DNA from: Pseudomonadota bacterium | Lineage (GTDB): Bacteria; Pseudomonadota; Gammaproteobacteria; Acidiferrobacterales; UBA6901 | DNA: 64,000 nt | Direction of reading: 5' to 3' | Assembly (NCBI GenBank): GCA_021819085.1 | Contig: JAKASJ010000001.1 | Span: 1-64,000, forward strand | Shown: positions 23,581 to 27,050 of the stretch, one piece after another | How the letters are laid out: every line of letters begins with the position of its first letter | Numbering within the stretch: the stretch's first letter is position 1 | Notes under the pieces: model-generated | What the model was told of the DNA's origin: nothing | Database searches by the model: none | Seen by the model: only the letters and a program-made list of their open reading frames with translations | Program-made: the position numbers and the translations under genes

Positions 23581-23948
23581 TATCCAGTCTCCGTCACCTG
23601 GCGTTCCCGGCAATAACGTTTAGGACCGCCGGCATCGACCGCGGGTTCCTTCCGCAGCGGCTGCCGCCGGCAATCACCGACCTGCATCATGCACCGTTAT
23701 CGCGCACGTCGTGCGGACCGGACCCTGCGCGGGGTTGGATCATGACCCATGCGGTCGAACCGGGCCTGCATCGCATTCCGCTTTCTCCTGACGATACCGG
23801 ATTGCTGTCCGGACCACCCCAGTTATGCCCAACACGACCGCGGGCAGTCCAGATGAAAATGACAATCTTGCGATTTTTTGTCACTTTTTCTTGACTTTTG
23901 TCGCCATCCTCCCCTAACCTTGCCGCGATCCGCATCCCTGGAGGTTCA
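23581..23948. other. Divergent region between GST and the MerR-ParA cassette
   Basis: No gene. It ends in a T-rich segment containing a good sigma-70-type promoter for the MerR-like gene. Confidence 0.5.
23891..23920 (+). promoter_or_regulatory. Likely promoter of the MerR-ParA cassette
   Basis: TTGACT at 23891 and TAACCT at 23915 are 18 bases apart, in a T-rich block within GC-rich DNA. Transcription would start near 23927, which rules out an ATG at 23898 as the start and supports the GTG at 23949. The slightly long spacer fits MerR-family regulated promoters, hinting at autoregulation (inference). Confidence 0.5.
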
Positions 23949-24491
23949 GTGCCCGGGACCGACTTGGGGTTCACAAGCAGACAAGTTAGCGCTGTCACCG
24001 GACTGACGCATCGCCAGCTGCATTACTGGCGCAAGACCAGTCTCGTCGTCCCATCCGGCCGCACAAGCGGCGGGCATGCGCGCTACAGCTTCACCGACCT
24101 CGTCGCCCTGCGGACCGCCAAGCAATTGCTCGATGCGGGCATATCTCTGCGACATATCCGCCGAAGCATCGTTTCCCTGCAACGCCTGCTTCCCACCCTT
24201 CAGCAACCGCTCACCGAGCTCTCGATCGTGGCAACCGGCGATGTGGTTCTCGTATTCCACGAGGGCGTTGCCTTTGAAGCGGTGACCGGCCAGGAGTGGA
24301 TTCTGCCGCTTGCGGCACTGCACCGGCAGCTGACACGGCTCGGATTTGAGGCCGACGCACGTTCGCCACAGCAGGGCGAACTGTTCACCGGTCCAGATCA
24401 CGCGGGACGAAAACGACGGCCGGGGCGGACGGCCGGGGACAGCGAGGGCAACGACCATACCCGGCCGGCGGGAAGCCGGCACAGCGGGTAG
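23949..24491 (+). CDS. MerR-like transcriptional regulator
   Basis: 180 residues from GTG at 23949, with GGAGG four bases before it. An N-terminal winged helix-turn-helix of MerR type (FTSRQVSAVTGLTHRQLHYW, then RYSFTDLVALRTAKQLLDAG) occupies residues ~8-80. The remainder (~85-150) is a small alpha/beta segment (VLVFHEGVAFEAVTGQEWILPL) with no obvious ligand-binding Cys, ending in a charged disordered tail. It is the first gene of the ParA-CBM48 cassette, 60 bases upstream of parA, and probably controls it. Its C-terminal part is not one of the metal- or drug-sensing types I recognise. Confidence 0.8.
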   Translation: MPGTDLGFTSRQVSAVTGLTHRQLHYWRKTSLVVPSGRTSGGHARYSFTDLVALRTAKQLLDAGISLRHIRRSIVSLQRLLPTLQQPLTELSIVATGDVVLVFHEGVAFEAVTGQEWILPLAALHRQLTRLGFEADARSPQQGELFTGPDHAGRKRRPGRTAGDSEGNDHTRPAGSRHSG

Positions 24492-24551
24492 GCGCGTGCG
24501 CGGTGCACACAGCCGATCTTTTCGGAGTCGACATCTCAGCGAGGTGACCAC

Positions 24552-25700
24552 ATGACTGTTATCGCGATTGCCAACCAGAAAGGGGGTTGCGGGAAGACGA
24601 CGACGGCGATCAATCTGGCAGCCTGCCTCGGCAAGAAGGGTCAGCGCGTACTGCTCGTCGACATGGATCCCCAGGGGCATGCCTGCCTCGGACTGGGGAT
24701 GCGCTGTGAAGAGATCCCGGGACTGTACGAGGTCTTCGCCGGCCAGGCATCGCTTGGCGAAGTGATCCTGCCCCAGGCCGTTGCAGGGGTAGACGTGGTT
24801 CCGGCCACCATTTCGCTCGCAGCCGCCGAACACAGCCTGCCGGACAACAGCGAGCGCGAGCGTCAGCTCACGATGCATCTGGCACGCTTCCGGCACCGTT
24901 ATGACTACGTCATCATCGACTGCCCGCCAACGCTCGGTTTCCTTTCGATCAACGCGTTGCGCGCTGCGGACCAGGTTCTGATTCCCATGGAACTGAGTCT
25001 GTTCGCAGTCGACGGTATCGAGCGCCTGCGCGAAACGATCTCGTTGCTGCGCGAAAAATACGGCCTCGACATCCCGATGCGCATCCTGCCAACCCTGGTG
25101 GACGACCGTACCCGCCTGTCGCGGAAACTTCTGCGCCAGATCTGGGAACGGTTTGCCGACGAAGTCACGCCGCTGATGGTGCACTACACGGTACGGCTGA
25201 AGGAAGCGGTCTGCGACGGCCGTCCGATCGTCGAATTCGATCCGGCCTGTGTCGCCACCATCGAGTACAACCGCCTCGCTGACGAAGTAATGAAGGGCCT
25301 TGCCGAGCGGCGACGTGAGGGACCGCGCCAGGCCGGGGAAGCCGCTGCCGCTCCGGCCAACGCCGCCCAGCCGCTGTGCACGCCGAAAACCCCATCCCGC
25401 TCGACAGGCCGCGGTCAGCCGCAGCGCACCGTGCTGCGTTTTCCAGGTCTTGCGGGGAAAAACATCCAGGTCGCGGGCGACTTCAATGACTGGGTGCCAG
25501 ATCAGGGCGTTGAAACAAAGATTGTGGGCAACAGCATAGAAAAGGTCCTGCTGGTCACCCCGGGATTGTACCAGTACCGTCTGGTCGTCGACGGCCGCTG
25601 GCAGGATGACCCTGTCAATCCTGCCCGCATCCCGAATCATGTCGGCGGCCACAACTCCCTTTTGCGCGTGCAGGAACCTGCCGAACTCATGGATCTGTGA
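24552..25700 (+). CDS. ParA-type ATPase fused to a glycogen-binding CBM48 domain
   Basis: 382 residues. Residues ~1-255 are a full ParA/Soj ATPase: deviant Walker A (QKGGCGKTT, residues 9-17) with signature Lys10, VLLVDMDPQG, YDYVIIDCPPTLGFL and the SLFAVDGIERL segment. A Pro/Ala/Arg-rich linker (~255-295) leads to a CBM48/AMPK-beta-type module (~298-375): FPGLAGKNIQVAGDFNDW, YQYRLVVDGRWQDDP and GGHNSLLRV, with the two sugar-stacking Trp positions present. ParA proteins bind DNA in an ATP-dependent way and move cargo; CBM48 binds alpha-glucan. The fusion suggests an ATPase that positions a glycogen-related cargo on the nucleoid (inference). No ParB gene is adjacent. Confidence 0.9.
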   Translation: MTVIAIANQKGGCGKTTTAINLAACLGKKGQRVLLVDMDPQGHACLGLGMRCEEIPGLYEVFAGQASLGEVILPQAVAGVDVVPATISLAAAEHSLPDNSERERQLTMHLARFRHRYDYVIIDCPPTLGFLSINALRAADQVLIPMELSLFAVDGIERLRETISLLREKYGLDIPMRILPTLVDDRTRLSRKLLRQIWERFADEVTPLMVHYTVRLKEAVCDGRPIVEFDPACVATIEYNRLADEVMKGLAERRREGPRQAGEAAAAPANAAQPLCTPKTPSRSTGRGQPQRTVLRFPGLAGKNIQVAGDFNDWVPDQGVETKIVGNSIEKVLLVTPGLYQYRLVVDGRWQDDPVNPARIPNHVGGHNSLLRVQEPAELMDL

Positions 25701-25726
25701 TGGCTATATCCCGCGGAGGCAAGGTC

Positions 25727-26494
25727 ATGGGCACGCGCGAGCGGCTCGCCGGCATCAGCCAGTATTTTCTGAGCGAACCGGACACGGGCGCAGCCGCGAA
25801 AAGCACCGCGCCGCACGAGACATGGCTGCTTCCGGTGCTGGTGGACTCCGAACTCACACAGGTCTTTGTCTATGCTCTGGCACGCGCCCTGCACGCACGT
25901 CGCCTCACGGCGATTGTGCTGCACGTCGATTCCAGCCTGCGCAGCACCGACCCGCGCTCTTCGTCGCTGCGCAGCCGCCTGGATTCCCCGGCGGTCCTGC
26001 GCCACCATCTGAAGGAGGAGCTCGGCGAATCCAAGCTGCCGCCGCGCGTCTGCCTGATACCGGTTACGGATTCCGGGAATCCGCACCTGCGCGAATACGA
26101 TCGGGCGCTGATCGCAGTCGGTGCGTCGCAGCTGGCACTGAAGCGCTCCTATCTCAACATCAAGCGGCTCGCCGGAGATGGAGTGCCCACCCGCATCGGC
26201 GCCATCGTTGTCGGCGCGGTGAGCGACGAAGATGCCCGTCGTTATTCCGACCGGCTGGCCGCCGCTGCGATGCGCTTCCTTGGGCGTACCGTTACCCGCA
26301 TCGGTGGCGTCGTCACTCCGGAATCCACCACAGATCCGGCCGATAACCTCGGCGAGGTCTCAGGGAATTCGCTCACCGCCATCGTCGATGCGCTGATCAG
26401 GGAGGGGTTCCTCGGCAGCAATCCGGATTCCGGTGCGGCTCCGGCCAGCGCTGCCGAGACTACAAAAAGCCCGCCGCCGGCGCGGAACCGCTGA
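25727..26494 (+). CDS. Unknown protein resembling a ParA/MinD ATPase without Walker A
   Basis: About 255 residues from the ATG at 25727, preceded by GGAGG at 7 bases; an ATG at 25700 overlapping the parA stop is the alternative. I do not recognise the family by name. The order of segments is MinD/FlhG-like: an N-terminal strand (WLLPVLVD), a helix and strand (LTAIVLHVDSSL), a central RALIAVGASQLALKRSYLNIKRL helix, then RIGAIVVGAVSDEDARRYSDRLAAAAMRFLG, which strongly resembles the late region of MinD/FlhG. There is no KGGxGKT loop, so it probably does not hydrolyse ATP. As the neighbour of a true ParA it may be a regulatory or heterodimer partner. Confidence 0.7.
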   Translation: MGTRERLAGISQYFLSEPDTGAAAKSTAPHETWLLPVLVDSELTQVFVYALARALHARRLTAIVLHVDSSLRSTDPRSSSLRSRLDSPAVLRHHLKEELGESKLPPRVCLIPVTDSGNPHLREYDRALIAVGASQLALKRSYLNIKRLAGDGVPTRIGAIVVGAVSDEDARRYSDRLAAAAMRFLGRTVTRIGGVVTPESTTDPADNLGEVSGNSLTAIVDALIREGFLGSNPDSGAAPASAAETTKSPPPARNR

Positions 26495-26495
26495 C

Positions 26496-27050
26496 ATGGC
26501 TTTGCACATCCGCCCCGAGCCGATGCCCTCAAAGCCCGCCCTGCGGGCGCTCATCGTCGCATCCCTGGATGCGTTCCTCGGTCCGACGACCGTCTTGGAC
26601 CCCGAATTGGCATGCACCGGGCATCCGGTCCTGGCGCTCGATGCGGCACACCGGCTGACACTCGTCAGCTTCGATCCCGGGGACGGCATTCAGGCACTCC
26701 TTTCCGGACTTTCCGCGTGGCATGAAACGCGCGCCGGAAACCCGTGGCTGAAGCGGCTTTATCCGGAATTGCACCAGCTCGATGGATCGCCGGCGCCGCG
26801 CCTCATCGTCCTGATGCCGGAGCTGCCGCCCGGGATCAGCCTGATCGCGTCGGATGAATGTGGCCTGGAGATCTTCTGCTTTCGCGTCCTGGCGGTGGAC
26901 GGACAGCCTGCGCTTCTGGTCGAGCCCGCGACGGAATCTCCCCCTGCGCCTGAAGTCGGCGCGGCGCCCCGCCACTCGCAACCAGTCCCGAACGTCGATT
27001 CGGAACTGACCGAGGAGGAAACCGCCTTCCTGGAGTCTATCCGGCCATGA
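26496..27050 (+). CDS. Unknown protein, last gene of the ParA-CBM48 cassette
   Basis: 184 residues. The start (ATG 26496) follows the preceding stop as TGACATG, so it is translationally coupled to the pseudo-ParA gene. Residues ~1-140 are an alpha/beta domain (HPVLALDAAHRLTLVSFD, APRLIVLMPELPPG, LEIFCFRVLAVDGQPALLVEP); the layout recalls a PD-(D/E)XK-like core, but no catalytic set is evident and I do not assign it. A Pro-rich stretch then joins a short acidic helix (DSELTEEETAFLESIRP) that could be a docking tail. The context makes it a candidate cargo adaptor or regulator of the ParA system. Confidence 0.65.
   Translation: MALHIRPEPMPSKPALRALIVASLDAFLGPTTVLDPELACTGHPVLALDAAHRLTLVSFDPGDGIQALLSGLSAWHETRAGNPWLKRLYPELHQLDGSPAPRLIVLMPELPPGISLIASDECGLEIFCFRVLAVDGQPALLVEPATESPPAPEVGAAPRHSQPVPNVDSELTEEETAFLESIRP

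Follow-up and report, generated by a model that had tools for sequence, protein, structure and literature searches.

Can an ATPase of the ParA family, whose cargoes are DNA and protein assemblies, also take charge of a polysaccharide? The question is raised by four genes at positions 23949-27050 (plus strand) of a 64,000-nucleotide stretch of contig JAKASJ010000001.1 (assembly GCA_021819085.1, a gammaproteobacterium of the UBA6901 lineage); this whole stretch is referred to as the window. The second gene was found to encode a ParA ATPase fused to a carbohydrate-binding module (CBM) of the glycogen-recognition type known from the beta subunit of AMP-activated protein kinase (AMPK). An earlier note on this DNA had described four genes on the same strand, encoding a MerR-like protein, a complete ParA joined to a CBM48, a "pseudo-ParA" and a fourth protein, and had proposed that they position glycogen. 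All four open reading frames (ORFs) are present on that strand, and the cassette is considered to be a ParA-family system whose adaptor layout is new and whose cargo is probably new as well. Its genes and domains are as follows:

23949-24491, plus strand: gene 1, MerR-type regulator of 180 amino acids, GTG start behind GGAGG (MerR_1, PF13411, 1e-16)
24552-25700, plus strand: gene 2, ParA-CBM fusion of 382 amino acids (AAA_31, 1e-53; PF16561, 4.4e-9)
24552-25301, plus strand: ParA ATPase domain, residues 1-250, with QKGGCGKTT, DMDPQGH and IIDCPP
25302-25421, plus strand: linker, approximately residues 251-290, varying in length and sequence in the alignment
25422-25679, plus strand: AMPK-beta-type glycogen-recognition domain (CBM48, PF16561), identified by Pfam, profile and contact residues
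25700-26494, plus strand: gene 3, predicted pseudo-ATPase with an FlhG/MinD fold (AlphaFold2 model)
26496-27050, plus strand: gene 4, predicted PD-(D/E)XK nuclease-like fold (AlphaFold2 model)

The ATPase half of the fusion is complete, as had been claimed, and its motifs are intact in the sequences of the whole family. The deviant Walker A motif (K10-G-G-C-G-K15-T), including the signature lysine, is present in 74 of 78 fusions, i.e., in all of those with sequence at this position, while D37 and D39 of Walker A' were found in 74/74 and D123 of Walker B in 77/77. The core also contains the ParA-type segment "VRLKEA". A maximum-likelihood tree of the ParA domain, built quickly with a short search and only 12 outside rows, split these 12 ordinary ParA proteins from all of the fusions with 100% support in the Shimodaira-Hasegawa-like approximate likelihood-ratio test. 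This separation fits a single origin of the fused family.

The C-terminal half matches PF16561 (AMPK1_CBM) over residues 293-376, with 36.9 bits against a cut-off of 26.8. The top match of the CBM profile is the AMPK beta glycogen-binding domain 1z0n (8.9e-13), followed by the phosphoglucan phosphatase LSF1 and a pullulanase, with a weak match to the glucan phosphatase SEX4. The glucan contacts of the AMPK domain are W100, K126, W133, L146, T148 and N150. The fusions, 78/78, all keep counterparts of W100, W133 and N150 and have R or K in place of K126, with L146 and T148 not being conserved; W133 and N150 alone are free of search bias, because the pattern used for the scan itself contained W100. 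An immunoglobulin-like domain other than CBM48, which the earlier note named as a finding that would refute it, was ruled out by the profile match together with the contact residues. The CBM48 claim is therefore sustained for a glycogen-recognition module with a tryptophan dyad, although the domain is of the AMPK-beta type (PF16561) and not PF02922 proper; both are placed within CBM48 by CAZy. On the strength of the conserved dyad, the fusion CBM looks able to bind glucan. It belongs to the same family as the AMPK beta domain and shares its two glucan-contact tryptophans and asparagine, the difference being that it is carried by a bacterial ParA ATPase and that of AMPK by a kinase complex.

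An 87-residue alignment of the CBM, scanned over ~85,000 species genomes, gave 80 best loci. Most of these hold one ORF in which ParA is N-terminal and the CBM C-terminal, and they come from Gammaproteobacteria, Nitrospirota, Myxococcota, Planctomycetota, Zixibacteria, Thermodesulfobacteriota and Auribacterota, the genomes being mostly metagenome-assembled, with taxon labels taken as given. The family can be recognized by the signature KGGCGKTT, DPQGH and a C-terminal FNxW...DGxW. A set of 145 genomes of relatives contained 17, not counting the host, with a match to the fused type; below these the score falls sharply to that of ordinary ParA proteins. In G026, one of the 17, the contig stops short of the CBM, and one congener (G003) is without the fusion.

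The neighbours are conserved with the fusion. Of 79 loci, 23 carry homologues of MerR, gene 3 and gene 4 around it on its own strand. A further 16, weak planctomycete matches counted, have gene 3 either by itself or with one of the other two, and approximately 15 of the remaining loci are limited by contig ends. The complete cassette, in order, occurs in Gammaproteobacteria, Nitrospirota-labelled metagenome-assembled genomes and Myxococcota. Within a class sample of 369 gammaproteobacterial genomes, 16 have the fusion or its CBM, and gene 3 adjoins it in 13 of these; a gene 3 of comparable specificity was detected in only one of the 353 other genomes (G234, on a 3.3-kb contig), and lower-scoring matches look like cross-matches to FlhG/MinD. 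This association is highly significant by Fisher's test (p = 3e-20, with no correction for relatedness). The earlier note had held that it would be refuted by the lack of a conserved gene neighbourhood in other genomes, whereas the fusion recurs in several phyla on a genome-wide search and its neighbours co-occur with it in three lineages. A chance or isolated fusion is ruled out, since fusion and cassette are conserved across phyla.

The cassette is also found in other forms. In two loci (L153, 5851-8206; L055, 9450-11537) ParA is missing, and MerR, a free CBM, the pseudo-MinD and the nuclease-fold gene follow one another in order; this free CBM, of 97-116 amino acids, lies between MerR and gene 3, in one case in a single-contig genome (G136). 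Fusions of families f7 and f88 (L037-L045, L048, L050, and L164) have no MerR, gene 3 or gene 4 nearby, and the f7 fusion is often located just downstream of a DsbA-like gene. Many planctomycete fusions have no adjacent gene 3. At five planctomycete loci (L078, L096, L099, L111, and L125) the fusion is followed by a protein of 476-579 amino acids holding a gene-3-like region, to which a gene-4-like part is added in L125. Genes 3 and 4 form one ORF at L062. The CBM was kept in every form seen, with the qualification that it was the search query and forms lacking it would escape.

Given that BcsQ, a MinD-like protein, serves cellulose secretion, the fusion could be imagined to assist the synthesis or export of a polysaccharide in the manner of BcsQ, and P0002 does score 53 bits against the BcsQ Pfam model. 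This is considered highly improbable, as the score against the NCBIfam BcsQ equivalog is 79, half of the cut-off of 158, the conserved neighbourhood has no recurrent synthase or exporter and the CBM is of the intracellular alpha-glucan type. Two further candidates were rejected, namely a plasmid-borne partition system (gene 3 had no match in 72,556 plasmids) and a defence system, for which PADLOC gave weak MerR and ParA cross-matches only.

A link to glycogen is suggested by the gene content of fusion genomes. The host genome encodes GlgA, GlgB, a GH57 branching enzyme and a GH13 cluster, the latter presumably being TreZ/TreY/TreS. In the class sample GlgA is present in all 16 fusion genomes as against 194 of the 353 others (55%), which gives p = 9e-5 by genome and ~0.002 when 11 families are taken as the draws. 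GlgA was likewise found in all 18 fusion genomes of the sample of relatives, host included, and, with the Myxococcota clade and Planctomycetota set apart, a GT5 GlgA (E < 1e-74) in 16/16 of the cassette or fusion genomes tested, with some overlap with the class sample. Polyhydroxyalkanoate was considered as the store in place of glycogen and rejected, as PhaC, used as a control, showed no association with the fusion (2/21 fusion versus 7/45 other genomes).

Genes 3 and 4 returned no family in scans of Pfam, NCBIfam and PADLOC, the homologues of gene 4 likewise gave no usable Pfam family, and the assignments of both genes come from predicted structures. The AlphaFold2 model of gene 3 (predicted local distance difference test score, pLDDT, of 80) aligns with FlhG 4rz3 at Z 18.0 over 185 residues at 3.2 Å and with FleN at Z 15-16, FleN-FleQ complexes being among the nearest folds. 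A P-loop or Walker A motif is absent from the 28 aligned members, two of which have a weak match to the CbiA Pfam family and none to any other usable one; because it has no Walker A motif, gene 3 was not filed as an ATPase. By its modelled FlhG/MinD fold it is a pseudo-MinD, in keeping with the "pseudo-ParA" label given previously. It resembles the MinD-like ATPases FlhG and FleN in fold (Z 15-18) and differs from them in having no Walker A and in being tied to a second, intact ParA.

The N terminus of gene 3 is marked by a conserved helix, with the motif RLxxISxxFLS in Gammaproteobacteria, LxDVLHYF in Myxococcota and LEEISHxFLS in Thermodesulfobacteriota and others. In one case (L116, 9104-10225 and the ORF directly downstream), an ORF of 282 amino acids joins an ISHLFLS motif to a gene-4-like domain and contains no pseudo-ATPase, so that the helix motif is a separable module. 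A response-regulator receiver lies upstream at this locus.

Gene 4 is, according to its AlphaFold2 model (pLDDT 89), a PD-(D/E)XK nuclease fold which is catalytically degenerate. The model aligns with EndoMS 5gke, the catalytic domain of EndoMS/NucS, at Z 10.5 over 108 residues at 2.5 Å, and it also resembles other PD-(D/E)XK proteins such as XisH (2okf, Z 8.5); Foldseek alone gave a weak match (E 4e-3). While the fold is thus shared with the C-terminal nuclease domain of EndoMS/NucS, none of the 22 homologues has the E-x-K catalytic motif on the strand where it is expected, as seen by alignment and motif check. A C-terminal tail, LSxEExxFF, is conserved.

It is tentatively proposed that the cassette is an ATP-gated system which tethers and distributes alpha-glucan, with the pseudo-MinD as its partner; in this proposal, which we regard as a serious possibility, we infer both the positioning and the glucan binding. 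Judging from its intact motifs, the ATP-bound ParA-CBM would dimerize and bind the nucleoid non-specifically, as ParA proteins do, and the two C-terminal CBMs of the dimer, with their tryptophan dyads, would grip alpha-glucan on glycogen particles or condensates. The dimer would in this way provide an ATP-dependent tether of glycogen to the nucleoid. The N-terminal helix of gene 3 (RLxxISxxFLS in the host's class) may, by itself or jointly with the gene 4 protein, prompt the dimer to hydrolyse ATP and let go. The glucan would then be distributed over the length of the nucleoid and divided between the daughter cells, instead of piling up at a pole, and the MerR protein, from its position, may regulate the operon, possibly according to glucan status. 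The role of gene 3 is assigned from gene order, motif position and the precedent of ParA partners, which are usually encoded immediately downstream and several of which stimulate the ATPase by an N-terminal segment (PMC8262871); gene 3 fits such a role, being directly downstream and having an N-terminal motif. Glycogen of Escherichia coli has been reported to phase-separate into condensates which are inherited at the old pole and displace the nucleoid (PMC12706056), which would make a tether between glycogen and nucleoid useful. A broader claim, namely that of a widespread and ancient machine positioning and partitioning a polysaccharide store, with its adaptor within the ATPase and a pseudo-MinD and pseudo-nuclease as co-factors, is held to be somewhat less probable.

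Several observations weigh against positioning of glycogen by this cassette. A cargo binder on the ATPase itself is the inverse of the usual ParA/ParB geometry, and the ParA-less (L153, L055) and partner-less (f7, f88) forms would not be predicted from a simple positioning machine. No glycogen gene adjoins the cassette and glycogen enzymes do not recur in its neighbourhoods. In searches which did not extend to GH57 and GT4, nine Myxococcota fusion genomes were without full-length GT5 GlgA, PF02922 and GT35 phosphorylase, six of these nine were also without any GH13, and the planctomycete G456 was without GT5 GlgA, PF02922, GT35 and GH13. The Myxococcota genomes of L067, L069, L071, L075, L080 and L104, apparently with no full GlgA, GlgP or GH13, have kept the cassette with its glycogen-type CBM. 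As the cargo, glycogen is consequently a good candidate for Gammaproteobacteria and their allies but a doubtful one for Myxococcota, since the tested enzymes are missing in the latter while the GlgA link holds elsewhere. The positioning proposal of the earlier note is thus supported in part, by the intact ATPase, the CBM, the neighbourhood and the GlgA association in Gammaproteobacteria, while the evidence speaks against a universal role for glycogen.

The persistence of the cassette in these Myxococcota would be more readily accommodated if the CBM served in protein interaction or regulation and the cargo were not alpha-glucan but, for instance, an enzyme complex, with glycogen being incidental in the lineages that make it. 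AMPK-type CBMs also contact protein partners. Such a cargo is nonetheless judged unlikely, in view of the invariant glucan-contact residues, two of which (W133 and N150) lie outside the search pattern, and of the co-occurrence with GlgA in Gammaproteobacteria.

The main rival to the tethering proposal is a glucan-sensing regulator of the FleN-FleQ type acting through MerR. ParA-CBM and pseudo-MinD would then form a regulatory ATPase controlling MerR or glycogen enzymes, with nothing being moved, on the model of the control of FleQ by FleN and of glycogen sensing by AMPK beta. A MerR homologue heads the cassette, upstream and on the same strand, in 29 loci and is lacking beside the solitary fusions of f7/f88; the fold neighbours of the pseudo-MinD, FlhG and FleN with FleN-FleQ complexes included, also point in this direction, as does the association of MerR, CBM, pseudo-MinD and nuclease fold in cassettes without ParA. 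However, the ATPase core has every ParA-type motif as well as the "VRLKEA" segment, MerR was not found at five loci (L062, L070, L083, L089, and L092) which have kept the fusion and genes 3 and 4, and only a local footprint, with no regulon, was seen. Purely regulatory action is for these reasons held to be rather unlikely, if somewhat less so than a cargo other than glucan.

The MerR identity of gene 1 is further indicated by a match of its helix-turn-helix to Alr3614 in the PDB (7xn2, 1.8e-8), and its protein has a conserved C-terminal stretch specific to the family. Upstream of it lies one further feature:

23860-23948, plus strand: putative promoter/operator region with an inverted repeat, a -35-like hexamer and the Shine-Dalgarno sequence GGAGG, largely conserved in two congeners

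The inverted repeat, TGACAA-N12-TTGTCA at 23860-23895, is a candidate operator and is kept or nearly so in L035 and L036, the only congeners with contigs reaching far enough for comparison. A sigma-70 consensus scan of the region upstream of MerR found nothing, which is at odds with the "good promoter" reported before, although TTGACT-N17-TAACCT, like the repeat, is largely conserved in both congeners. Translational coupling had been noted for genes 3 and 4, and their junction is indeed TGAcATG, with gene 4 starting one base past the gene 3 stop; this junction is not alone, since the stop codon of the ParA-CBM gene overlaps the first possible ATG of gene 3 (TGATG). For gene 3, a start at 25727, where an in-frame ATG follows GGAGG, is more probable than one at 25700 and would place the conserved helix at the extreme N terminus. 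An opposing ORF of 568 amino acids (23946-25652, minus strand) looks like an artefact of high G+C content.

With regard to known systems, the cassette resembles McdAB, by which carboxysomes are positioned, in having a ParA-type ATPase, a partner gene directly downstream and a metabolic cargo. It differs in that the ATPase itself carries the cargo module, the putative partner is of the pseudo-MinD kind, and there are additional nuclease-fold and MerR genes. Near the cassette, no genes for carboxysomes were noticed, although no search was aimed at them. The tethers PhaM, PhaF, PhaH and AlgP are similar in that the cassette would also link a storage granule to the nucleoid, but they are DNA-binding proteins without an ATPase and their cargoes are polyhydroxybutyrate or polyphosphate (PMC13052382). 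The earlier note knew of no described system of this kind, and none was found here: no report of a ParA-CBM48 fusion was identified among 5.4 million papers of the open literature, subscription papers and preprints being outside that scope, and glycogen is mentioned neither in a 2025 review of organelle positioning nor in a Halothiobacillus study of seven ParA/MinD ATPases.

The ParA-CBM fusion offers a concrete and testable candidate for the active positioning of bacterial glycogen. The signature KGGCGKTT, DPQGH, FNxW...DGxW will allow annotators to recognize the family. Should the proposal be correct, two degenerate enzyme folds would have been recruited as partners of a ParA ATPase, and the cargoes of this family would extend beyond DNA and protein assemblies to polysaccharides. 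The cassette suggests that glycogen may be actively anchored or sorted in some bacteria.

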